Shown one piece after another: positions 3,502 to 20,653 of a stretch of DNA of 36,810 nt. Within the stretch, counting starts at the first letter, position 1. The number at the start of each line of letters is the position of its first letter. The stretch is taken from contig JAJYXE010000019.1 of the NCBI GenBank assembly GCA_021791145.1, positions 1 to 36,810 of the forward strand, read 5' to 3'. The notes beneath the pieces are model-generated. The model did no database searches, was not told the origin of the DNA, and saw only the letters and a program-made list of their open reading frames with translations. Source of the DNA: Actinomycetes bacterium (lineage in GTDB: Bacteria; Actinomycetota; Acidimicrobiia; Acidimicrobiales; RAAP-2). The translations under genes were made by a program, and so were the position numbers.

Positions 3502-3524
3502 CTTTCAGCCGGCTCCCTTTCAGC
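3487..3524. repeat. 15-bp tandem repeat carrying in-frame UGA codons
   Basis: The unit CTTTCAGCCGGCTCC occurs twice in full (3487-3501, 3502-3516) and once partly (3517-3524). Read on the minus strand it places in-frame TGA codons at 3522-3520, 3507-3505 and 3492-3490, so the oxidoreductase frame meets three UGAs 15 nt apart at its end. Most simply a duplication of a terminator arm. Confidence 0.8.
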
Positions 3525-4926
3525 GCCTCGGCTGCGGGGGCACGTAGCGGGGGTCGTGGATCGGCTTGGGCATCAGCGCGTGCTGGAGCGCCTGGGCGAG
3601 CCCCGGGAAGACCGACAGGGTGCCCGCGGCCTGGGACACGGTGAGACCTCCGGTCATGGCGAAGGCCATCCCTTGGATGAGCTCGGGCGATCCGGCTCCG
3701 ACGGCGTGCGCGCCGAGGATCCGCCCGCTGCCTGCCTCGGAGAGGATCTTCACGAAGCCCTCCGGCTCGCCGAGGACGTTGCCGACCGGGCAGACGTCCC
3801 GGTAGTCCTGGCGGTGCACCTCGACGCTGAGGCCCTGGTCGCGCGCCTGGCCCTCGGTCAGCCCCACGCCCGCGACCGGCGGCGTGAGACCGACGAGGTA
3901 GGGGACCACACGGTCGTCGAAGGCGGCCTGCTCGCCGCGCAGCGCGTTGCCGACGACCATGGTCCCTTGCTTGGTGGCGACCGGCGAGAGCTGGTAGGCG
4001 CCGGCGCGCACGTCCCCGATGGCGTAGATGTGGCCCACGTTCGTGCGCAACGTGGGGTCGGTGGGGATCCCGTGGCGGTCGTAGGCGACCCCTGCGGCCT
4101 CGAGGGCGAGGTCGTCGACCGCCGGCACCATGCCGGCCGCCAGGAGCACCCGGTCGGCCTCGAGCCGCAGCGGCCCGTCAGGCGCCGCCGCCTCGACGGC
4201 GATCGCTCCGCCCTGGCGGCTGAGGCGCTCGAGCCGGGTGGAGAGGTGCAAGGCGATCCCGAGCCTTTCCGCCATGGCCGCCACCTCGGTCTGGACGTCG
4301 TGGTCGACCCGCCCGAGCACGTGGTCGAGCAGCTCGACCACCGACACCTCGACGCCGACGCGGGCCATCATGAACGCGAACTCCATGCCGATCACCCCGC
4401 CGCCGATGACGACCAGGCGCCGGGGGAGCTCGCGCGCCTCGAGCAGCTCGACGTGCCCGTCGGCCAGCTCGATGCCCTCGACCGGGAGCTTGGGCAGCTT
4501 CGCCCCGGTCGCCACCACGATCGACGTGCCGTGGAGGACCCGGTCGCCCACGGCGACGGTGTGCGGGTCGACGAAGTGCCCTGCGCCGGCGACGAGGGCT
4601 GCCCCGCCGTCGATCAGCTCCTCGGGCTTCGGGTCGGCGCACGTCGCCACGATCGCCTGGGCGCGGTCGACGGCCGCGGCCCAGTCGACCTGCGGCTCGC
4701 TGATGCTGATCCCGAACTCAGAGGACCGGCGGAGCAGCCTGAGGATCTCGGTGACCCTGACCAGGGCCTCCTTGGGAATTCACCCGTAGTGGAGTCAGGT
4801 GCCGCCGATCTTGTCGGGCTCCACCAGCGCCACGCTCGCTCCGAGCGCCAGTGCTCGGCGCGCCGCCGCGCCGCCACCTGGCCCGGCTCCGAGGACCACC
4901 AGGTCGTAGCGCTCGACCGCGTCCAT
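3520..4926 (-). CDS. Pyridine nucleotide-disulfide oxidoreductase with UGA at both catalytic cysteine positions; candidate selenoprotein
   Basis: A 468-residue class I flavoprotein (dihydrolipoamide dehydrogenase / mercuric reductase family). Start ATG 4926 has a strong AAGGAGG site just upstream. In order: FAD-binding YDLVVLGAGPGGGAAARRA (about residues 7-25); redox motif GGT-UGA-LHYG-UGA-IPKEAL with UGA at codons 44 (4797-4795) and 49 (4782-4780); NAD(P)-binding VVIGGGVIGMEFAFMMARVG; second FAD motif YAIGDV; C-terminal dimer domain. The family motif is GGTCLNxGCIPxKAL, so both UGAs replace the disulfide cysteines exactly and nothing else in the frame is damaged. The C-terminal His-Glu dyad is absent (SVFPGLAQAL where dihydrolipoamide dehydrogenases have HxHPTxxEAL), so it is not a normal E3; in that respect it is closer to mercuric reductases. 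Divergent from an SQR-like gene. Likely read through by Sec insertion or Cys-inserting suppression; otherwise a pseudogene. Conventional gene calling would split it at about 4795 and begin the remainder near 4650. Confidence 0.85.
4750..4771 (-). promoter_or_regulatory. Candidate bacterial SECIS hairpin after the second UGA
   Basis: On the minus strand, 11 nt after the second UGA, GGCCCT pairs with AGGGTC (six base pairs, one G-U) around a GGUC tetraloop (4768-4753). Beyond an A-A mismatch, GG/CC pairs extend it to 4771-4750. E. coli fdhF also has its minimal SECIS 11 nt after UGA with GGU in the loop. The loop lies 17 nt after the UGA, within the window known for bacterial SECIS elements. 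Function is inferred. Confidence 0.6.
4768..4794 (-). promoter_or_regulatory. Weaker hairpin directly after the first UGA
   Basis: On the minus strand CTCC (after UGA 44) can pair with GGAG, enclosing an inner GGG/CCC stem whose UGAAUU loop contains the second UGA. It shares two bases with the stronger hairpin, so the two could alternate. A SECIS role for the first UGA is speculative. Confidence 0.3.
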
Positions 4927-5005
4927 CGAGCCTCCTTCCGCCATGGGCAGGTCTTCCTGGGCTGTCGCCCGTCGCAACCGTACGTCGGCCTCGGCCCGAG
5001 CACAA

Positions 5006-5019
5006 GGGACCATCGGCCC
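5006..5019. promoter_or_regulatory. DosR/DevR-like box between the UGA oxidoreductase and SQR
   Basis: GGGACCATCGGCCC matches the mycobacterial DosR consensus GGGACTWWAGTCCC at 11 of 14 positions. On the minus strand a TACGGT -10 follows at 4982-4977, which would centre the box near -42 of the oxidoreductase promoter, the usual activator position. On the plus side no convincing -10 is seen for SQR. The identity of the regulator is inferred. Confidence 0.5.
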
Positions 5020-5107
5020 TGGGCCGGCGCTGCGTGGGAGCAGAGACTCTTCGTCGGCACGGCTGGTCGCGCCGCCTGCGCGCACCGGGAGGACAGGAGG
5101 TAGGGCG

Positions 5108-6385
5108 ATGGCACAGCGGATCGTGATCCTGGGCGGCGGGACCGGGGGGACGCTGCTCGCCAACCGGCTGCGCCGCGCCTACGGACGGCGCGAGGCCAGC
5201 ATCGACGTGGTCGACCGGGACGACCGCCACATCTACCAGCCCGGTCAGGTGCCCGTCGCCTTCGGCATCAGCCAGCCGAAGGACATCGTGCGGTCCCGGC
5301 GGCGCCAGCTGCGGGCCGGCGTCGACTTTTACGAGACCGAGATCGACCACGTCGACCTCGAGGCGGACCAGGTGCACCTGGCCGGGGGCGACGTCCTCGA
5401 CTACGACGTGCTGGTGGTCGCCACCGGCGCCCGCCTCGCCCCCGAGGCCACGCCCGGCCTCACCGGGCCCGGATGGATGGACAAGGTGCTCACCTTCTAC
5501 GACTTGGAGGGCGCTGGCGCCCTGTCGGCAGCCCTCGAGCGCTTCGACGAGGGACGGCTCGTCGTCGGCGTCGTCGACATGCCCATCAAGTGCCCCGTCG
5601 CCCCCCTCGAGTTCTGCCTCTTGGCCGACTGGTACTTCACCGAGCGCCACGTGCGCGACCGTATCGAGATCACCTTCTTGAGCCCGCTGCCCAGCCTCTT
5701 CGCCGCCCCGATCGCCGACGCGAGCGTCGAGCGGCTCTTCGCCGACAAGCGGGTGGGCCAGGAGACCGACTTCCACATCGCAGAGGTCGACGGGGCGAAC
5801 GGGAGGATCGTCGACGCCGCCGGCCGCGAGGTCGGCTTCGACCTCGCGGTCGTCGTGCCGTCCTTCCGGGGCGCCGCCTACGTCGGGCGCTCCCCCGGGC
5901 TCGGCAACGAACGGGACTTCATCGAGGTGGACACGAAGACCCTGCAGTCGCCCGCGCACCCGAACGTCTTCGCCATCGGCGACGCGGCCGATCTCCCCAC
6001 CTCCAAGACCGGGTCGGTGGCGCACTTCGAGGGCGAGGTGGTCGTCCGCAACATCCGCCGGTTCCTGGCGGGCCAGCCCCCCGACGCCCACTACGACGGG
6101 CACGGCACCGGCTTCATAGAGACCGGCTTCCACAAGGCGATGCTGCTCGACTCCAACTACACCACCCAGCCCCTCCCCGGCCACTTCCCGACGGCCGTCG
6201 GCCTGCCGCTCCTGAAGGACTCCCGCCTGAGCCACCTGGCCAAGGTCGAGTTCCAGTGGTTCTACTGGCACTTCCTCCTCCCCGGACGCGACATCCCGGG
6301 GCTCGGCTCGGCCATGCCGACGCGCGGCAAGGCCAGGGTCGCCGACATCGACGCGGTGCCGTCCTCTCCGAGCACGCCCGGGTGA
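5108..6385 (+). CDS. Sulfide:quinone oxidoreductase-like FAD flavoprotein
   Basis: A 425-residue protein. The N-terminus carries the FAD-binding fingerprint RIVILGGGTGGTLLANRL. A second GD motif, FAIGDAADLPTSKTGSVAHFEGE, lies at about residues 290-310, and a C-terminal tail contains amphipathic aromatic segments that would dock to the membrane. One SQR cysteine position is recognisable in the PIKCPVAPLEF motif, but I do not see a convincing third cysteine near KTGSVAHFE. Polysulfide handling may therefore differ from classical SQR. Known family reaction: oxidation of sulfide to sulfur or polysulfide with electrons passed to quinone. The ATG at 5108 has a GGAGG site at good distance; a longer frame upstream is a shadow. 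It is divergent from the UGA-containing oxidoreductase, suggesting a shared redox or sulfur function. Confidence 0.85.
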   Translation: MAQRIVILGGGTGGTLLANRLRRAYGRREASIDVVDRDDRHIYQPGQVPVAFGISQPKDIVRSRRRQLRAGVDFYETEIDHVDLEADQVHLAGGDVLDYDVLVVATGARLAPEATPGLTGPGWMDKVLTFYDLEGAGALSAALERFDEGRLVVGVVDMPIKCPVAPLEFCLLADWYFTERHVRDRIEITFLSPLPSLFAAPIADASVERLFADKRVGQETDFHIAEVDGANGRIVDAAGREVGFDLAVVVPSFRGAAYVGRSPGLGNERDFIEVDTKTLQSPAHPNVFAIGDAADLPTSKTGSVAHFEGEVVVRNIRRFLAGQPPDAHYDGHGTGFIETGFHKAMLLDSNYTTQPLPGHFPTAVGLPLLKDSRLSHLAKVEFQWFYWHFLLPGRDIPGLGSAMPTRGKARVADIDAVPSSPSTPG

Positions 6386-9604: not shown

Positions 9605-11365
9605 TCATGCGGACAGCGCGGCCGGCGAGGCGAGGAGCCGGGTCAGCGCCTCGACGCCCGATGGGGTGTCGGCGAGCATGGGCACCAGGGCCAGGCGAGA
9701 CGTGTACAGGGCGCGCACCTCCGAGAGCCGCTGTCGCTCAGCGGCAGCGCGCGCGCTGAGCAGCGGGTCGGTCGTGGCCGTCGCCGCGAGGCTCTGGTTC
9801 GCGACCCAGGCGAACGGCTCGATCCCGGCACGCCGCAGGTCCTCCTGGAGGGCCGCCGCCTCGTGGACGGGGGTGGCCTCGGGCACGGTGACGACGAGGA
9901 CCGAGGTGAGACCGGGATCGGTCAGCCGATCGAGCAGCGCCTCGACCTCGGGGGGCACGGCGCCGCCCTGGCGGCCGACCTCGCGGTGGTAGGCACGTGC
10001 CGCGTCGAGGAGGAGCAGGGTGTGGCCGGTGGGAGCGGTGTCGAGGACGACGAAACGCTCCGTGGCTCCCGCCACCGTGCGGGCGAAGGCCCGGAACACC
10101 GCGATCTCGGCCGTGCACGGTGAGCGCAGGTCCTCCTCGAGCACGGCTCGACCGGCGTCGTCGAGCATCGCACCGGCATCTGCGAGCACCTCGGCGACGT
10201 AGGCGGCGGTCTCGCGCTCGGGATCGATGCGGCTCACGGCGATGGTGCCCACGGCATCCTCGTCGGCGAGCACCGCGTCGAGATGGGCGGCGGGGTCGGT
10301 GGTGGTGAGCTCGACCGGGTGCCCGGCCCGTGCCAGCTCCACGGCGATCGCCGCCGCCAGCGTGGTCTTGCCGACGCCACCCTTGCCCATCGCGAGGACG
10401 AGCCCTCGCCCGCGCTCGGCCAGCTCGTCGACGAGGGCGCGAAGGGTCGTGGTGTCGGGCAGGGTCTCGCCCGGTACCTCGACCGGCGGGGTCGCGCCGT
10501 CGAGCAGCGCCCGCAGCGCGGGGACGCCGACCGGGCTGAAGGCGACGAGCGGCACCTCGTCGCGGGGCAGTCCGGCAAGCTCGGAGGGCAGCGTCTCGAG
10601 CGCGGCTGCAGCGCGCGAGGCGAGCGCAGCGGCCAGCGGGTCCTGCGAGCCCGGGGCGGAGAAGACCCCATTGACCACCAGCCGCTGGTTCCCGACACCG
10701 AGCGCGCCGAGCTCCGCCGCGGCACGCGCGGCCTCGCCGAGCGCCAGCGCATCGGGGCGCGACACCAGCACCAGCACCGTGCGCCCGGCGTCGGCCAACG
10801 TCGCCACCGCAGCCCGGTAGCGCTCGTGCTGGCTGTTCAGGCCCGACAGCGGACCGATGCACGAGGTGCCGAGCGTGCTCGTGTCGATGAACTCGCTCCA
10901 GGCCGCCGGCAGCGACAGCAGCCGCAGCGTGTGGCCGGTCGGGGCCGTGTCGAAGACCACGTGGTCGTAGGCGGCGGTGGTGTCGGGATCCGCCAGCAGC
11001 GCGCTGAACTCGTCGAACGCGGCGATCTCCACCGTGCAGGCCCCCGACAGCTGCTCTTCGACGCTGGCGACCGCCGACTCGGGCAGCACGCCGCGGTAGG
11101 GGCCGACCACGCGCTCGCGATAGGCAGCGGCAGCGGCCAGCGGGTCGATGTCGAGCGCGTCGAGGCCGGCCACGTCCGGCACCGGCGTGGGCGAGCCGCT
11201 GAGGGAGACCCCGAGCACCTCGTCGAGGTTCGACGCCGGATCGGTCGAGACGAGCAGCACACGACGCCCGGCATCGGCCAGGCCGACCGCGACCGCCGAG
11301 GCCGTCGAGGTCTTCCCCACCCCGCCCTTGCCGGTGAAGAACATGAAGCGCGGGGCGCTCGCCAT
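9605..11365 (-). CDS. arsA: Arsenite-efflux ATPase ArsA (two-domain)
   Basis: 586 residues made of two homologous halves. The first has P-loop FTGKGGVGKTSTASAVAVGL and signature FDTAPTGHTLRLLSLP. The second has P-loop GKGGVGKTTLAAAIAVELA and signature DTAPTGHTLLLLDAARAY. Cysteines appear in SGACTVEIAAF, GTSCIGPLSG and SPCTAEIAVF, positions that correspond to the arsenite/antimonite-binding site of ArsA. It would energise the ArsB carrier by ATP hydrolysis. I chose ATG 11365, 4 residues before the conserved FMFFTGKGG; the frame continues upstream for 63 codons without similarity. It follows the ArsD-AhpD gene on the same strand, matching the ArsD-to-ArsA metallochaperone pathway. Confidence 0.95.
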   Translation of the reverse strand: MASAPRFMFFTGKGGVGKTSTASAVAVGLADAGRRVLLVSTDPASNLDEVLGVSLSGSPTPVPDVAGLDALDIDPLAAAAAYRERVVGPYRGVLPESAVASVEEQLSGACTVEIAAFDEFSALLADPDTTAAYDHVVFDTAPTGHTLRLLSLPAAWSEFIDTSTLGTSCIGPLSGLNSQHERYRAAVATLADAGRTVLVLVSRPDALALGEAARAAAELGALGVGNQRLVVNGVFSAPGSQDPLAAALASRAAAALETLPSELAGLPRDEVPLVAFSPVGVPALRALLDGATPPVEVPGETLPDTTTLRALVDELAERGRGLVLAMGKGGVGKTTLAAAIAVELARAGHPVELTTTDPAAHLDAVLADEDAVGTIAVSRIDPERETAAYVAEVLADAGAMLDDAGRAVLEEDLRSPCTAEIAVFRAFARTVAGATERFVVLDTAPTGHTLLLLDAARAYHREVGRQGGAVPPEVEALLDRLTDPGLTSVLVVTVPEATPVHEAAALQEDLRRAGIEPFAWVANQSLAATATTDPLLSARAAAERQRLSEVRALYTSRLALVPMLADTPSGVEALTRLLASPAALSA

Positions 11366-11459
11366 CAGGCCACCGAGCACCCTTCGACCTGTCGAGTGAT
11401 GGTCCGTTGCAGCGGCGGCGCCCCGCGCCGTGGCGCCGGGGACCGCCGTCCCTTCCGGC

Positions 11460-12224
11460 TCAGCCACAGCAGCCCGAGGACGACTGGTTGGCGGCGACCC
11501 CGACGAGCGGCACGTCGACGGGCTCCGAGCTTCCGCCGCAGCACCCTCCGACACTCTCGGCTGTCTCGGCGGTCTCGTCGGGCTCCGAGCTTCCGCCGCA
11601 GCACCCTCCGGCGGTCTTTGCGGTCTCGGCGGTCTCCGCGGTCTCCGCGGTCGGCGCCGCGGAAACGGTGCCTGCAGCCGGCGCGCCCAGGGCGGCCGCC
11701 TCGGTGCCGAGCAGCTTGGCGGCGAGCTCCAGCACGGAGCGTGCGGGGGTGTCCTTCACCGTCTGGGCCAGCCGCACGGCCTCGGCCATCACGCCGGGCG
11801 CGACACCGAGGCGACGAGCCTGGTCGTAGTGGTACTTCAGGCATGGCTCGCAGTTCGCACCGATCGCTGCGCCGATCGCCACGAGCTCGGCCGTGACCGC
11901 GTCGAGACCCGCCGCCGCGTCGGTCCCGAAGGCCCAGGCCGCGAGCTCGGCGCGCGACGGATAGCGGCCCGACGAGCGCAGCGCGCCATCCACCACCACC
12001 GCGGGCAGCGCCTCGTCGCCGCGCTCGGCGAGCAACGCACGCACGAGCTCCTCGTCCGCGAAGGCCTTTGGCTCCTGGGACAGGTTGTGGCGCTCGACCA
12101 CCGCGCCCTGCTCGGAAAGCCACGCCAGATCGGCAGCGAACGCGGCGAGCGCCGGGTCGACGCTCGGACCGCACACCCCCGTCGAGCAGCACATCGGGGG
12201 ATCGAACACCTCGACCGTCGACAT
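11460..12224 (-). CDS. arsD: ArsD-AhpD fusion with cysteine-pair tail
   Basis: 254 residues in three parts. (1) An ArsD domain starting STVEVFDPPMCCSTGVCGPS, with the CC and C that bind As(III), to about residue 100. (2) An AhpD-like helical domain with the redox motif GANCEPCLKYHYDQARRLGV. (3) An Ala/Thr/Glu-rich tail with two copies of GGCCGGSSEP and a terminal SGCCG, giving three vicinal cysteine pairs. ArsD passes arsenite to ArsA; AhpD-like domains are thiol-disulfide peroxidase partners. ATG 12224 is preceded by GAGGAGG at ideal distance and gives the usual ArsD N-terminus; ATG 12251 would add nine residues and lies in the operator palindrome. The tail could buffer As(III) in a metallothionein-like way (inference). 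Confidence 0.9.
   Translation of the reverse strand: MSTVEVFDPPMCCSTGVCGPSVDPALAAFAADLAWLSEQGAVVERHNLSQEPKAFADEELVRALLAERGDEALPAVVVDGALRSSGRYPSRAELAAWAFGTDAAAGLDAVTAELVAIGAAIGANCEPCLKYHYDQARRLGVAPGVMAEAVRLAQTVKDTPARSVLELAAKLLGTEAAALGAPAAGTVSAAPTAETAETAETAKTAGGCCGGSSEPDETAETAESVGGCCGGSSEPVDVPLVGVAANQSSSGCCG
11520..11610. repeat. Imperfect 60-bp duplication in the ArsD-AhpD tail
   Basis: A 31-nt stretch starting at 11520 recurs exactly 60 bp later at 11580, encoding the two GGCCGGSSEP motifs. Internal duplication therefore created the extra cysteine pair. Confidence 0.85.
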
Positions 12225-12242
12225 CAGGACCTCCTCGAGTTC

Positions 12243-12294
12243 ATCGCTCATCGTCGATGAGCGATTACGATAGCAGATCGAAGCGTCGCCACAA
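12243..12294 (-). promoter_or_regulatory. arsD promoter with 23-bp palindromic operator
   Basis: Minus-strand promoter: -35 TTGTGG (12294-12289), 16-bp spacer, -10 TATCGT (12272-12267). A perfect palindrome, ATCGCTCATCG plus one base plus its complement (12243-12265), covers the expected transcription start, and arsD begins 19 nt further on. Likely ArsR operator repressing arsD-arsA-DsrE-FmdE (inference). Confidence 0.65.
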
Positions 12295-12908: not shown

Positions 12909-13439
12909 ATGCAGGCCGGTGACGGAGACCAGCGCCGGCGACGAACGGTCGGCGAGACGAGCGCCCAGGCCGCCGGCGTGACGGCGGGCGACCTCATGGA
13001 CCCCCCGCCTGCGCCGGTCGAGCCCGGTGACGAGCTTCGCCGCGCCGTGCGGGTACTGCTCGACGCCGGCCTGACCGCCCTGCCTGTCACCGACGGCTCC
13101 GGCCGCCTGGTGGGCCTGCTGGACGAGGAGGACCTCCTGGTGCTGGCCGAGGACCGCCACGTGGTCGAGCAGGAAGCCGAGGTGGCCCGGTTCTGGCCCA
13201 TCGCCGGCGGGCGACGCGCCGCCAGGCACCTCCAGACGATCCAGGCGAAGCGCGTCTCGGAGGTCATGGCGCATCACCCCCCCTCCGTGCACATCTCGGC
13301 GCGCTGCGAGCACGCAGCCGAGGTCATGGCCGATCACCGCGCCGGGGTGCTCCCCGTCACCGACGACGAGGGCCGCGTGGCCGGGGTGCTCACCCGCCGC
13401 GCACTCATCGACGCCTGGTGGGCGGGGCGCCTGTGCTGA
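12909..13439 (+). CDS. Two-CBS-domain protein
   Basis: About 176 residues containing a CBS pair. The first CBS runs from [20 protein letters not shown] to [20 protein letters not shown]; the second runs from [20 protein letters not shown] to [23 protein letters not shown] pairs bind adenine nucleotides and regulate partner enzymes or transporters. The start is uncertain: ATG 12909 is in frame and downstream of the likely operator repeats, while GTG 12978 begins exactly at the first CBS motif. The C-terminus overlaps the start of arsB, so this protein is probably made together with the arsenite carrier and may sense energy state for it (inference). Confidence 0.82.
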
Positions 13440-14749
13440 GCCTGGGCGGAGCGTGGCTGACCTTCGCCGCGGTGGCGATCTTCGTCGCCACCTTGACCCT
13501 GGTGATCGCCCAGCCCAAGGGACTGTCGATCGGCTGGTCCGCCGGAGGAGGCGCGGCACTCGCGCTGCTCCTCGGTGTGGTGCACCTCGCCAACGTGGCC
13601 ACGGTGTGGGACATCGTGTGGAACGCCACGGCGACCTTCGTGGCGGTCATCGTCATCTCGCTCGTCCTCGACCGGATCGGGTTCTTCGAGTGGGCGGCGT
13701 TGCACATGCTGCGCGCGGCCAGGGGCAGCACGATCCGGGCCTTCGTCTTCATGATGGTGCTCGGCGCGGGGGTCGCCGCGCTGTTCGCCAACGACGGGGC
13801 GGCGCTGATCCTCACCCCGATCGTCTACGAGCAGATGCGAGCCCTGGGATTCGAACGCCGCCAGGCGTTGCCCTTCGTGATGGCGGCCGGGTTCATCGCG
13901 GACACGACCAGCCTGCCCCTGGTGGTGTCCAACCTGGTCAACATCGTGAGCGCCAACTACTTCCACATCGGCTTCACCAGCTACGCCGCGACGATGGCCC
14001 CGGTGGACTTGATCGCTTTCGCCGCGAGCGTCGGGGTGCTCTACGTCTTCTACCGCCGCTCCCTCCCCGCCCGCTACGACCTCGCGGCGCTCCCCCAGCC
14101 GCAGCGCGCGATCCGGGACCTCCGGCTGTTCCGGATCGGCTGGGTGGTCCTCGGCGTCCTCTTGGCCGGCTACCTCCTCTCCGAGCCGCTGCACTTCCCC
14201 GTCTCGGTCCCCGCAGCAGCCGCGGCGGTGGCGTTCCTCGGGCTCGCGGCACGTTCCGAGGCGCTCTCCAGCGCCAGGGTGCTGCGCGAGGCGCCGTGGA
14301 AGATCGTGGTGTTCTCCCTCGGCATGTACCTGGTCGTCTTCGGACTGCGCAACGCCGGCCTCACCGTCTACCTGTCCGACGCGTTGCGCGCTGCAAGCCA
14401 CGCCGGGCTGGTCCCCTCGTCCCTCGTCAGCGGCTTCGGTGCCGCCGGGCTGTCCGCGGTGATGAACAACATGCCGACGGTGCTCGTCGGCGCGCTGTCG
14501 ATCCACGGCGCGCACCTGGGCGGCCTGACGCGGACCGCTGCGGTCTACGGCAACGTCGTGGGCTCCGACCTCGGACCGAAGTTCACCCCGATCGGCTCGC
14601 TCGCAACCTTGCTGTGGCTGCACGTGCTCGAGACCAAAGGGATCAAGATCAGCTGGGGCCAGTACTTCCGCCAGGGCATCATCCTCACCGTCCCCGTCCT
14701 CGGCGTCACCCTCTTGGCCCTGGCCGGTTGGGTGACCCTCGTCCACTGA
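13433..14749 (+). CDS. arsB: Arsenite efflux carrier ArsB
   Basis: About 438 residues with roughly 11-12 hydrophobic helices. ArsB signatures of the ion-transporter superfamily are visible: [38 protein letters not shown], and [19 protein letters not shown] followed by [23 protein letters not shown]. It exports arsenite, alone as an antiporter or energised by ArsA, which is encoded divergently. The start is GTG 13433, overlapping the stop of the CBS gene; GTG 13418 in the same frame is an alternative adding five residues. No ACR3-type cysteine motif is present, so this is ArsB rather than ACR3. Confidence 0.95.
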
Positions 14750-14834
14750 CCAGACAGTCAAGCCGTCGAACGACCAGCGCAAGCGTCCAGTTGCCAGACG
14801 TGCGTGAAACCAGACCTGCGTGGAAGGAGCGCCC

Positions 14835-15293
14835 ATGAACCCTGCCGACCGGCATGCCGACGGGGACCCGTCGCCGACGAGCGTCCCCGTGGTCCTCTAC
14901 GCCTGTGTCCACAACGCCGGCCGCTCGGTCGCCGCGCGGGTGCTCACCGAGCACTACGCGCGCGGTCACGTCGAGGTGCGCTCCGCCGGCTCCGAGCCGG
15001 CGTCCTCGGTCGACCCCATGGTCGCGGCGGTGCTCGCCGAGCGGGGTCTGTCGACGGACGCCGAGGTGCCGACGCTGCTCACCAGGGCCGTCGTCAGGGA
15101 CGCCGACGTGGTGGTCACGATGGGGTGCGGCGAGACCTGTCCGGTGTTCCCCGGCAAGCGCTACTCGGACTGGGACGTGGACGACCCCGCCGGCCAGGGG
15201 CGCGCAGCAGTCGAACGCATCGTGGACGACATCGACCGCCGCGTCCGCCGGTTGCTCGGCGAGCTCGGGATACCGATACCGTCCGAGACATGA
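14835..15293 (+). CDS. arsC: Arsenate reductase, low-molecular-weight phosphatase type
   Basis: 152 residues. The catalytic loop is CVHNAGRSVAARVL (C-x5-R), followed by VRSAGSEPASSVDPMV. The C-terminal part VVTMGCGETCPVFPGKRYSDWDVDDPAGQ carries the two further cysteines and the DPAG motif of arsenate reductases of the LMW-PTPase family, close to the Corynebacterium/mycobacterial enzymes that use thioredoxin or mycothiol. It reduces arsenate to arsenite for export by ArsB. ATG 14835 has AAGGAG at the right distance; an upstream GTG at 14820 is less likely. The next gene downstream is the phosphate-type carrier. Confidence 0.95.
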   Translation: MNPADRHADGDPSPTSVPVVLYACVHNAGRSVAARVLTEHYARGHVEVRSAGSEPASSVDPMVAAVLAERGLSTDAEVPTLLTRAVVRDADVVVTMGCGETCPVFPGKRYSDWDVDDPAGQGRAAVERIVDDIDRRVRRLLGELGIPIPSET

Positions 15294-17033: not shown

Positions 17034-18155
17034 GTGACGCACGCCTCGCGAGCCCTCTCGTACCCGGCTGACATGGAGCTTTGGGGCATTGACGCCCCGC
17101 TGAGCGTGCTCGACCCCGAGGGGCGTCGGACCGGGGCCACCAGCCCGAGGTACCCCGACGACCTTGCGGCGGACGAGCGCCGTCGCCTCCTCACCCACAT
17201 GGTGGTAACCCGCAGGCTCGACGCCGAGCTCGTGCGCCTCCAGCGTCAGGGACAGCTCGCCCTCTACGCCTCCTGCCTCGGTCAGGAGGGGGCGCAGGTA
17301 GGCGTCGCCGCGGCACTCGCGACCGGCGACTGGCTCTTCCCCCAGTACCGAGAGCTCGGGTTGTTCGTCGCCCGAGGCATCGACCCGGTAGGGATCGCCA
17401 TGATGTGGCGGGGTGCCTACCACGGCGGGCGCGGGTTGATCGACAAGAAGACCATGCCGATGTGCATCGTGGTCGGTGCTCACGCCCCGCACGCGGCGGG
17501 CTACGCGATGGGAGTGAAGCTCGACGGCGCGCCGGAGGTGGTCGTCGCCGTGATGGGCGACGGCGCGCTCAGCGAGGGCGACGTGCACGAGGCATGCAAC
17601 ATGGCGACCGTGTTCGATCTGCCGTGCCTCTTCGTCGTGCAGAACAACCACTGGGCGATCTCCGTTCGCTCCGAAGTGCAGACTCACAGCGCGACGCTCG
17701 CCCAGAAGGCGGTCGCCTATGGCATGCCCGGGGTGCGCTGCGACGGCAACGACGTCCTCGCCACGTACTCGGTCACCGCCGACGCCCTGCGCCGCATCCG
17801 GGACGGGGGTGGGCCGATGCTGCTCGAGCTCGTCACCTACCGCAGGGGCGCGCACACCACCTCCGACGACCCCACGCGCTACCGGGACGAGGCGGAGCTC
17901 GAGCACTGGAGCGCCCTCGACCCGATCGACCGCTACCGCCGCCACCTCGAGAGAGAGGGGCTCTGGGGAACCCCGGAGCAAGAAGCAGCCGACGGGGCAG
18001 CGGAGGAGGCTGCGGCGCGCCTGCGCGCCGAGGTCTACGACGCCCCCGATCCCCCCGTCACCGAGCTCTTCGACCTCGTCTTCTCGAAGCCCACCTCCGA
18101 GCTCGAGCGCCAGCGGGCCGAGCTCGAGTCGTCGCTCGGCTGGGACCAGCCGTGA
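17034..18155 (+). CDS. pdhA: 2-oxoacid dehydrogenase E1 alpha (pyruvate or branched-chain)
   Basis: 373 residues. Thiamine diphosphate motif VVVAVMGDGALSEGDVHEACNMATVFDLPCLFVVQNN (GDG to NN) and HTTSDDPTRYRDEAELEHW, the phosphorylation-loop region of E1 alpha chains. It decarboxylates a 2-oxoacid and hands the acyl group to lipoyl-E2. GTG 17034 with GGAGG fits. The HTTSDDPTRYR loop is shared by pyruvate and branched-chain enzymes, so substrate is not settled. First gene of a three-gene operon; the start of E1 beta overlaps its stop (GTGA). Confidence 0.9.
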   Translation: MTHASRALSYPADMELWGIDAPLSVLDPEGRRTGATSPRYPDDLAADERRRLLTHMVVTRRLDAELVRLQRQGQLALYASCLGQEGAQVGVAAALATGDWLFPQYRELGLFVARGIDPVGIAMMWRGAYHGGRGLIDKKTMPMCIVVGAHAPHAAGYAMGVKLDGAPEVVVAVMGDGALSEGDVHEACNMATVFDLPCLFVVQNNHWAISVRSEVQTHSATLAQKAVAYGMPGVRCDGNDVLATYSVTADALRRIRDGGGPMLLELVTYRRGAHTTSDDPTRYRDEAELEHWSALDPIDRYRRHLEREGLWGTPEQEAADGAAEEAAARLRAEVYDAPDPPVTELFDLVFSKPTSELERQRAELESSLGWDQP

Positions 18156-19129
18156 CCGCGACCACGATGGTCGGCGCCCTCAACGCGGCGCTCGCAGACG
18201 CGATGGAGAGCGACTCCAAGGTGCTCGTCTTCGGCGAAGACGTCGGTCGGCTGGGCGGAGTCTTCCGGGTGACCGAGGGCCTCTTCGAGCGGTTCGGGCC
18301 GGCGCGCTGCTTCGACACGCCACTTGCCGAGTCCGGGATCGTCGGGCTCGCCATCGGCCTGGCGCTGCGCGGGTACCGGCCGGTGGCCGAGCTCCAATTC
18401 GACGGGTTCAGCTACCCCGCCCTCGACCAGGTCATCAACCAGCTCGCCAAGTACCGACTTCGATCGGGCGGCCTCGTCGACCTCGGTGTCGTGGTGCGCA
18501 TCCCCTCCTTCGGGCGCATCGGGTCGCCCGAGCACCACTCGGAGTCCCCCGAGACGTACTACGCGCACACGGCGGGGCTGAAGGTCGTGTCCCCGTCCTC
18601 ACCCGCAGACGCGTACTCGATGCTGCGCGAGGCCGTCGAGTGTCCGGACCCGGTGATCTTCCTCGAGCCCAAGCAGCGGTACTGGGTGAAAGAGGAGCTC
18701 GACCTGCCGGTGCGAACGCCTCCTTTCGACCGCGCCGTCGTCCGGCGTGCCGGCGGCGACGTGACCCTCGTCGCCTACGGGGGCGCGGTGGCGGTGGCGA
18801 TGTCGGCGGCGGAGGAGGCCGCGTCCCAGGCATCGGTCAGCGTCGAGGTGGTGGACCTCCGCTCGCTGTCGCCGATCGACGTCGACACCGTGGTCGACTC
18901 GGTCAAGCGGACCGGGCGCTGCATCATCGTCCACGAGGCGCCGAGGACGCTCGGGATGGGTGCGGAGCTCGCCGCCCTCGTCCAAGAGCGCGCCTTCTAC
19001 CACCTCGAGGCGCCGGTGCTCCGCGCGACGGGCTTCGACACCCCGTACCCTCCGGCACGGCTCGAGACGCAGTGGCTGCCGGGCGTCGACAGGGTCCTCG
19101 ACGCCGTCCAAGCCGTCTGGTCCTACTGA
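18152..19129 (+). CDS. pdhB: 2-oxoacid dehydrogenase E1 beta
   Basis: 325 residues of the transketolase-like family: ALADAMESDSKVLVFGEDVGRLGGVFRVTEGL with the catalytic-site Glu, DTPLAESGIVGLAIGLALRGYRPVAELQF, and the C-terminal domain VSVEVVDLRSLSPIDVDTVVDSVKRTGR followed by a conserved HEAPRTLGMGAELAAL. It forms the alpha2beta2 E1 heterotetramer with the preceding gene product. GTG 18152 is the only start consistent with the conserved N-terminus; the same frame stays open upstream inside E1 alpha without meaning. Confidence 0.93.
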   Translation: MTATTMVGALNAALADAMESDSKVLVFGEDVGRLGGVFRVTEGLFERFGPARCFDTPLAESGIVGLAIGLALRGYRPVAELQFDGFSYPALDQVINQLAKYRLRSGGLVDLGVVVRIPSFGRIGSPEHHSESPETYYAHTAGLKVVSPSSPADAYSMLREAVECPDPVIFLEPKQRYWVKEELDLPVRTPPFDRAVVRRAGGDVTLVAYGGAVAVAMSAAEEAASQASVSVEVVDLRSLSPIDVDTVVDSVKRTGRCIIVHEAPRTLGMGAELAALVQERAFYHLEAPVLRATGFDTPYPPARLETQWLPGVDRVLDAVQAVWSY

Positions 19130-19144
19130 GGTAAGAGCTCGCAG

Positions 19145-20653
19145 ATGGAACGCGACTTCCTCCTGCCCGACGTCGGCGAGGGCCTCGAGAACGCCACGAT
19201 CGTCGAGTGGCACGTGGCCGAGGGGGCCGCCATCGAGCTGAACCAGCCTCTGGTCACGATCGAGACCGCGAAGGCCGCCGTGGAGCTCCCGTCGCCATTC
19301 GCCGGCAGGGTCACCCACCTCAACGCCGCCCCGGGCGACGAGCTGGCGGTGGGCGCGCTCCTGGCGCGTATCGACACCGGGGAGGGGGCGGACGCGGGCG
19401 CGGCGCCGATCACGAGTGCGAGCGGCGCTGGCACCCCCCCGAGCGGCGCGGGCCCTGGCGCCACCCGACCACAGGCTGGGCAGCCCTCGCGCGGCGCAGA
19501 TCAGGCAGCGGGGCGCGACGGCACCCACGAGCGCGCCTCTGGACGCGAGGCGCTGCTCGTCGGCTACGGGGCCGAGCCACCACAGCCCGCGCGCCGACCG
19601 CGGGACTGGTCGCGCACCATGCGGATGGAGGGTGTCCCGACCTCGGCCTCCGAGCCTCCCGCTCCGGCGAGCCCGCCGTCGGCCGCCCGCCCGATGGCCA
19701 AGCCGCCGGTCCGCTGGCTCGCCAAGTCCCTCGGCGTCGACCTGCGCAGCCTCCAGGCGACGGGCCCGCACGGCGAGGTGAGCCGCGACGACGTCGAGGC
19801 GGCCGCGTCAGCTCGCGCCGGGGTCGAGACGCCCGACTGGCGGGAAGAGCCCCGCCAAGGCGAGACCTTCGTTGGCCGGGCGCCCGCAGAGCAGCTCGGC
19901 GAAGAGCTCCCCGACGAGATCCCGGTCGTCGGCATCCGGGCCCGGATCGCCGAGCGCATGAGCCGCTCTCGCGCGCAGATCCCCGAGGCGACGGCAGGCC
20001 TCTGGGTCGACTGTGAGCGGCTCTTGGAAATGCGAGCCCTTCTCGACGACGAGCTCGAGCGCGCGAACCCAGCCCGGGCCGGCGGCGACCGGCACGACGA
20101 CCACCACCACCCTCGCCAGGAGCTGACGCCATTCGCGCTCTTGGCCTGGATGGTGCCGATCGCCCTGCGTGCGGCCCCGCTCCTCAACGCGAGCTTCGAC
20201 TCCGAGTCCAAGATGATCCACGTCCATCGGTCGGTGCACCTGGGCATCGCCACGTCCACCCAGCACGGACTGGTCGTTCCCGTCTTGCGCGAGGCGGACC
20301 GCCTGACCGTCGGCGAGTTCGCTGCTGAGCTCGCGAGACTCAGCCGTTCGGCCCGCGCCGGCACCCTCACGCCGAACGAGCTCGTCGGCTCGACCTTCAC
20401 GATCTCGAACTACGGCGCGCTCGGACTGGACGACGGCAACCCGGTCATCAACATTCCCGAGGCGGCCATCCTCGGCGTCGGCTCGATCGCGCCCCGCGCG
20501 GCCGTCCACGACGACGCGCTCGAAGTGCGCGCGACCGCCAAGCTCGTCTGTGCCTTCGATCACCGCGTGTGCGACGGCGCCGAGGCGGCGCGCTTCCTCC
20601 TCCGGCTCAAAGCCCTCGTCGAGCGCCCCGAGCGGGCGCTCGCCGCGCGCTGA
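19145..20653 (+). CDS. pdhC: Dihydrolipoamide acyltransferase E2
   Basis: 502 residues. One N-terminal lipoyl domain (FLLPDVGEGLENATIVEWHV, with lipoyl-Lys43 in IETAKAAVEL), a long Gly/Ala/Pro-rich linker, and a peripheral subunit-binding domain (PPVRWLAKSLGVDLRSLQATGPHGEVSRDDV). The C-terminal catalytic domain ends FDHRVCDGAEAARFL with the active-site His and Asp. A His-rich insert (HDDHHHHPRQE) sits within the catalytic domain. It carries the acyl group from E1 to CoA; the linker-bound domain normally recruits E3. No E3 gene is adjacent, and the UGA-containing flavoprotein at 3520 lacks the E3 His-Glu dyad, so E3 is presumably elsewhere. Confidence 0.95.
   Translation: MERDFLLPDVGEGLENATIVEWHVAEGAAIELNQPLVTIETAKAAVELPSPFAGRVTHLNAAPGDELAVGALLARIDTGEGADAGAAPITSASGAGTPPSGAGPGATRPQAGQPSRGADQAAGRDGTHERASGREALLVGYGAEPPQPARRPRDWSRTMRMEGVPTSASEPPAPASPPSAARPMAKPPVRWLAKSLGVDLRSLQATGPHGEVSRDDVEAAASARAGVETPDWREEPRQGETFVGRAPAEQLGEELPDEIPVVGIRARIAERMSRSRAQIPEATAGLWVDCERLLEMRALLDDELERANPARAGGDRHDDHHHPRQELTPFALLAWMVPIALRAAPLLNASFDSESKMIHVHRSVHLGIATSTQHGLVVPVLREADRLTVGEFAAELARLSRSARAGTLTPNELVGSTFTISNYGALGLDDGNPVINIPEAAILGVGSIAPRAAVHDDALEVRATAKLVCAFDHRVCDGAEAARFLLRLKALVERPERALAAR

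Follow-up and report, generated by a model that had tools for sequence, protein, structure and literature searches.

Two UGA codons at the catalytic cysteine positions of a flavoenzyme homologue point to a probable diselenide centre encoded near arsenic genes

Results

A disulfide-oxidoreductase gene with two in-frame UGA codons

The window, by which we mean the whole 36,810-nucleotide stretch of actinomycete DNA analysed here, carries on its minus strand a pyridine nucleotide-disulfide oxidoreductase gene (3520..4926). Translated from the ATG at 4926, it comprises 468 codons and a TGA stop (3522-3520), and its only in-frame UGAs are codon 44 (4795..4797) and codon 49 (4780..4782), in the context GGT-UGA-LHYG-UGA-IPKEAL. 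By translation and alignment these are the positions of the first and second catalytic cysteines, and we predict selenocysteine (Sec) at each. A Shine-Dalgarno-like AAGGAGG (4931..4937, minus strand) stands 4 nt before the ATG. Pfam places Pyr_redox_2 at residues 7-321 and Pyr_redox_dim at residues 341-450; both domains of the class I pyridine nucleotide-disulfide oxidoreductases, and their shared fold, are present in the protein, which when read through is predicted to fold with a mean pLDDT of 94.3. The GGTCxxxxC redox pair of class I enzymes is UGA/UGA here, and the motif is matched only if Sec is counted as Cys.

Much of this had been described in a sequence-only reading of the same DNA, and it held up: translation agrees with two UGAs in an otherwise intact 468-codon frame, the strong ribosome site is the AAGGAGG at 4937-4931, four bases from the ATG, and the dinucleotide-binding and dimer domains correspond to the two Pfam matches. 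UGA is, as that reading also stated, a normal stop nearby, where the open reading frames (ORFs) ending at 1417, 6385, 7026 and 8264 all terminate in TGA. It had further argued that two such hits were unlikely by chance and had proposed an alignment of homologues across the UGAs. Both positions are Cys in all 63 ordinary homologues aligned, and the identical codons are UGA in two further assemblies (see below), in line with that argument. When the window was scanned by composition for in-frame TGA with coding-like sequence to either side, two places came up: the double-UGA pair and the boundary of the pyruvate dehydrogenase genes for E1-beta and E2. The latter was rejected as a recoded site, being a true stop between genes.

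Divergent from the oxidoreductase gene is a sulfide:quinone reductase-like gene (5108..6385, plus strand; the ORF is also given as 4943-6385). Its best NCBIfam match is NF049943, a selenoprotein subtype of type III sulfide:quinone reductase (SQR), at 489.6 bits, below the cut-off of 525, and the matched stretch is free of in-frame UGA. About 5-7 kb from the double-UGA gene lie genes for the arsenical pump-driving ATPase ArsA (9605..11554, minus strand; above the NCBIfam cut-off) and for an ArsD metallochaperone fused, according to domain matches, to an AhpD-like (CMD) domain with a CxxC (11460..12251, minus strand). Beyond them are genes for an ArsB arsenite pump (13418..14749, plus strand) and for an arsenate-reductase-like (ArsC) protein of the low-molecular-weight phosphatase fold (14820..15293, plus strand; below NCBIfam cut-offs). 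The ars cluster is followed by pyruvate dehydrogenase-type E1-alpha, E1-beta and E2 genes (17034-20653, plus strand); an ordinary E3 combining the two oxidoreductase domains was not seen among the window ORFs scanned.

The double UGA recurs in two phyla

Two further members of the family were found among the best 80 loci of a scan of GTDB contigs. One, in an Actinomycetes MAG (locus L001, genome G001), is 87% identical to the window protein; the other, in an Acidobacteria MAG (locus L002, genome G002), is 54% identical. Both have UGA at codons 44 and 49, and apart from the double UGA neither frame contains an internal stop. These genes thus display one hallmark of bacterial selenoproteins, an in-frame UGA that aligns with the cysteine of homologues and is conserved between organisms.

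The L001 locus shares synteny with the window, at 84.9% over 4552 bases, and gives no test of a link to arsenic genes, because it stops short of the ars region. At the L002 locus, an ArsR-type regulator gene, an arsD-AhpD fusion, arsA and an osmC-like gene lie directly upstream of the double-UGA gene on the same strand, and the ars genes of this locus and the window match at 66-69% at the DNA level. The two ArsD-AhpD fusions (11460-12251 on the minus strand of the window; L002:2954-3703) carry Cys-Cys pairs towards the C-terminus, ending in GCCG or GTCC at the stop. Homologues of the fusion occur in metagenomes and MAGs, with both domains present among the matches listed.

The 31 database members found here are all recorded as N-terminally shortened proteins. 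The 27 proteins closest to the window protein are 95-48% identical to it, are 352-436 aa long and start downstream of both UGAs. A profile search recovered 31 members at 562-693 bits, every one starting after both UGAs, and a 210-aa fragment at 372 bits whose start likewise lies later; in the 120 matches listed, an ordinary homologue comes next at 289 bits, and none is a Cys/Cys member of the family (8000 candidates were scored per protein search). In a tree of 95 sequences, the window protein, L001, L002 and 28 of the 31 database members form one clade (support 1.0, branch 0.53), and the window's own sub-clade holds 16 of the 31 tree members. By alignment, 27 of the 28 database members in the tree start at window residue 61 or beyond; the aligner put the other, P0247, in the wrong place, and its LGEFGI start fits window residue 68 by eye. 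The three members left out of the tree (P0005, P0008 and P0019) start at about window residues 75-86; P0019 is the product of L002, and P0008 is nearly that of L001. The UGAs were read as DNA in three genes, those of the window, L001 and L002, and we infer that the other 29 database members, some of them on short contigs, also have the double UGA.

The distribution of the gene is patchy. Among 397 genomes searched around G001, and among 397 searched around G002, it was present only in G001 and G002 themselves, each of which was included in its own set. Viral contigs yielded ten relatives at 24-32% identity and no family member, and plasmid records yielded at least 5000 matches, those listed all being below 60% identity.

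A predicted SECIS hairpin within reach of both UGAs

A hairpin, GGCCCU-GGUC-AGGGUC (4753..4768, minus strand; loop 4762-4759), is the predicted SECIS element of the window gene. In the window, L001 and L002 alike, its loop lies 17 nt past UGA 49 and 32 nt past UGA 44. L001 and L002 share one sequence, GACCCU-GGUC-AGGGUC, and the window version has one G-U pair. The bSECIS model as given in PMC13188914 has a loop of 3-9 nt, a stem of 4-16 bp, a G in the first two positions, a spacing of 16-37 nt and a minimum free energy of at most -7.5. The hairpins of L001 and L002 satisfy every one of these rules, with a loop size, G position and spacing that suit both UGAs; the window hairpin by itself reaches -7.4 kcal/mol against the threshold of -7.5. 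When the 65 nt from UGA 44 onwards are folded it is outcompeted, with a pair probability of 0.01, against 0.87 for the 35 nt that start at UGA 49.

With random synonymous codons, the exact hairpin arose in 3.0% (window), 3.3% (L001) and 0.7% (L002) of trials, and any qualifying hairpin serving both UGAs in 6.7-9.1%. Among 65 ordinary Cys/Cys genes, a qualifying hairpin (stem of at least 6 bp) reached the second codon in nine, both codons in one and occupied the family's place in none, in a control that is not GC-matched, many of its genes coming from low-GC genomes. For this sample, each of 67 of the 80 loci supplied one gene, the other 13 being without a motif match; at locus L003 another gene of the locus was used, and the single-UGA gene described below was not retrieved there.

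Codon conservation was compared pairwise. L001 and L002 have identical codons at 130 of 257 shared residues, and the longest run of identical codons in the gene, codons 48-58, lies on the hairpin, as does the longest run between the window and L002 (codons 55-59). Between the window and L001, a pair too close for this comparison, the longest run (codons 299-315) lies away from it. A second small hairpin around UGA 49 (of the type GGG-UGAAUC-CCC, in all three genes) was set aside, having 3-4 base pairs. Our prediction is of one SECIS hairpin serving both UGAs; the energy of the window hairpin, the folds that compete with it in the longer segment and a weaker hairpin of similar kind in a single-UGA gene described below, from a genome in which no Sec machinery was found, tell against it.

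Purifying selection on both sides of the UGAs

In the one pair analysed, the window and L001 (dS 0.27), dN/dS is 0.05 for codons 1-43 (2 non-synonymous and 13 synonymous changes), 0.285 for codons 45-70 and 0.33 after codon 70. In this pair the stretch before the first UGA is maintained as protein, and purifying selection acts both before and after the UGAs.

Selenocysteine machinery in the host genomes

The sequence-only reading had proposed a search for Sec machinery, and the two MAGs gave different answers. The Acidobacteria MAG has a full set: a tRNA-Sec with a UCA anticodon (67.4 bits), SelB (300 bits), SelA (529 bits) and SelD (365 bits), the SelD gene (L099) having an in-frame UGA of its own at the catalytic position. 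In the MAG that contains L001, searches for SelA, SelB, SelD and tRNA-Sec gave nothing above cut-off, and the 48 tRNAs identified include no UCA anticodon; another four weak matches to tRNA models lie outside this set. This MAG is incomplete and mixed, since no tRNA-Cys or tRNA-Asn was seen whereas tRNA-Tyr occurs three times and other tRNAs are also duplicated.

SelA is above cut-off in 226 of the 397 genomes of the search around G001, although G001 itself is without it. SelB was found in 28 of 61 genomes and in 28 of the 30 that are SelA-positive, leaving two without a SelB seen. The two genes are often directly adjacent (contig 16 of G050 and contig 48 of G043 are examples), and the loss of a single contig could therefore remove both. 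The first six relatives listed (G004-G009), in an order that may reflect kinship, have neither SelA nor SelB.

Comparison with known families

Among NCBIfam models the window protein is nearest to dihydrolipoyl dehydrogenase and mercuric reductase, and it falls below cut-off in all 25 models listed (of 37 matched). Against dihydrolipoyl dehydrogenase (TIGR01350; structural references M. tuberculosis Lpd 3ii4/2a8x) it scores 330 bits, the cut-off being 408.8. Unlike that enzyme, the family has UGA at both Cys codons; the base His is replaced by Phe 440 in 27 of 27 family members; the conserved Lys 53 is replaced by Gln or Glu (3/3); and the window protein has F-P-G instead of His-Pro-Thr and additional cysteines at residues 96 and 379. 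Mercuric reductase (MerA; TIGR02053) belongs to the same superfamily and likewise stands in a metal-resistance setting, and the solved MerA 5x1y is also without His at the base position (Tyr in the alignment), yet the window protein scores 313.6 bits against a cut-off of 454.45. MerA has a C-terminal vicinal Cys pair, which the window protein lacks, its last cysteine being residue 379 of 468; the window gene also differs in its UGA codons and in having ars rather than mer neighbours.

PMC13188914 (2026) counts, by its own tally, 119 prokaryotic selenoprotein families, among them a single-Sec type III SQR. Its Table 1 includes an FAD-dependent oxidoreductase of the CoA-disulfide reductase type (motif UGxP), which belongs to the same superfamily and combines FAD with Sec, but has one Sec and another motif; the window protein matches CoA-disulfide reductase (TIGR03385) only from residue 138, at 76 bits against a cut-off of 578.8. 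Two-Sec bacterial proteins in that table are a Prx-like protein (UxxU), TsoB (UxxxxU) and NF041115 (UxxU, 'putative mercuric reductase'). The spacing of four residues in TsoB equals that in the window protein, but the table describes these proteins as peroxiredoxin-like, rhodanese/DsbD-like and metal-binding rather than as flavin disulfide oxidoreductases. A flavin disulfide oxidoreductase with Sec at both redox positions is absent from Table 1 of PMC13188914, and within that table the earlier remark that no described member with both positions recoded was known still stands. The double-UGA flavoenzymes are very likely a new selenoprotein family.

A different disulfide-oxidoreductase gene, in Jeotgalicoccus marinus DSM 19772 (L003:9995-11356), carries a single UGA, at the first of the two catalytic Cys positions. 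It is flanked by IS21 genes and MerB/MerA, and has a similar but weaker hairpin (-4.4). In this genome tRNA-Sec, SelA and SelD were searched for and none was above cut-off, nor was a UCA anticodon present among the tRNAs read; none of eight other genomes of the genus has the gene at E <= 1e-100. Though the site is striking, this is probably a recently broken gene.

Discussion

Our analysis suggests that the window gene encodes a flavin-dependent disulfide-oxidoreductase homologue in which both active-site UGAs are likely read as Sec, giving a predicted diselenide centre; we put the probability of this reading at roughly 0.85. On sequence evidence, site-specific recoding of both codons is strongly supported, because the double UGA recurs in two phyla, a hairpin stands at the same place each time and purifying selection flanks the UGAs. 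Sec at both positions is favoured by that same recurrence together with the Sec system of the L002 genome, the shared hairpin and the selection on codons 1-43; the lack of sel genes in the L001 MAG, the lack of SelA and SelB in G004-G009 and the patchy distribution of the gene weigh against it. The earlier proposal, recoding as Sec or as Cys through a suppressor, thus stands as regards recoding, with Sec preferred, whereas the suppressor found no counterpart among the 48 tRNAs of the L001 MAG.

Insertion of Cys at both UGAs, whether by a tRNA-Cys with a UCA anticodon or by a SelB-dependent non-canonical tRNA, would yield an ordinary disulfide enzyme. Both kinds of tRNA occur in nature, Cys would evidently work at positions where all 63 ordinary homologues have it, and the L001 MAG shows no Sec genes; yet none of its identified tRNAs has a UCA anticodon, the Sec system of the L002 genome is canonical and includes a UGA-containing SelD gene, and suppression leaves unexplained why all three genes should have a hairpin at one and the same place. 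We therefore regard this as very unlikely. The absence of sel genes from G001, and of SelA and SelB from G004-G009, bears as well on the idea that the diselenide enzyme works in Sec-using hosts such as the Acidobacterium, while Actinomycetes without Sec decoding have merely acquired the gene and make a 43-residue fragment. The patchy distribution would suit such horizontal transfer. Against this, at a dS of 0.27 the window and L001 keep a dN/dS of 0.05 upstream of UGA 44 and of 0.33 beyond residue 70, the window's sub-clade looks too diverse for a set of dead genes, and Sec machinery is common in other relatives of G001, which makes an acquired, silent gene similarly improbable.

That the gene is a pseudogene, contains sequencing errors or is translated from a start codon past the UGAs appears extremely unlikely, even though the database copies of all 31 members use a downstream start. 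Three assemblies are hit at exactly both catalytic Cys codons and at no other, and both a pseudogene and a late start are disfavoured because codons 1-43, preceded by a ribosome site, are under purifying selection in the pair compared. A late start would moreover cost the protein its first FAD-binding motif and the two redox positions, whereas the read-through form is predicted to fold at a mean pLDDT of 94.3.

With Sec at both positions as the preferred reading, a ribosome arriving at UGA 44 would meet SelB and Sec-tRNA on the hairpin, its loop 32 nt downstream; four codons on it would reach UGA 49, now 17 nt from that loop, and the hairpin would be used again. In the finished enzyme, electrons would pass from NAD(P)H through FAD to the Sec44-Sec49 diselenide, and from Sec44 to the substrate. 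A selenolate requires no deprotonating base, which would fit the loss of the base His of dihydrolipoyl dehydrogenase in all aligned members; this loss is not specific to selenium, since 15 of the 63 ordinary homologues lack the His too.

The ars neighbourhood common to the window and L002 suggests that the enzyme may keep arsenic-handling thiols, for example those of ArsD fused to its AhpD-like domain, in reduced form, or may reduce arsenic species. AhpD- and OsmC-type proteins draw on an electron supply of the lipoamide-dehydrogenase type, and a role as electron donor is plausible for that reason. We give about even odds to the fuller picture, of a flavoenzyme family in which the disulfide of the DLD/MerA fold is wholly replaced by a diselenide, decoded through one SECIS element, engaged in arsenic detoxification and carried between phyla with ars genes.

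The disulfide centre common to glutathione reductase, lipoamide dehydrogenase and mercuric reductase is textbook material. If our reading is correct, a natural version in which both sulfurs have become selenium would offer a test of two things, the contribution of selenium to flavin-disulfide chemistry and the ability of such an enzyme to manage without the catalytic histidine. It would also provide a compact example of a single SECIS element decoding a pair of UGAs only 12 nt from each other, and would connect the biochemistry of selenium with the detoxification of arsenic.
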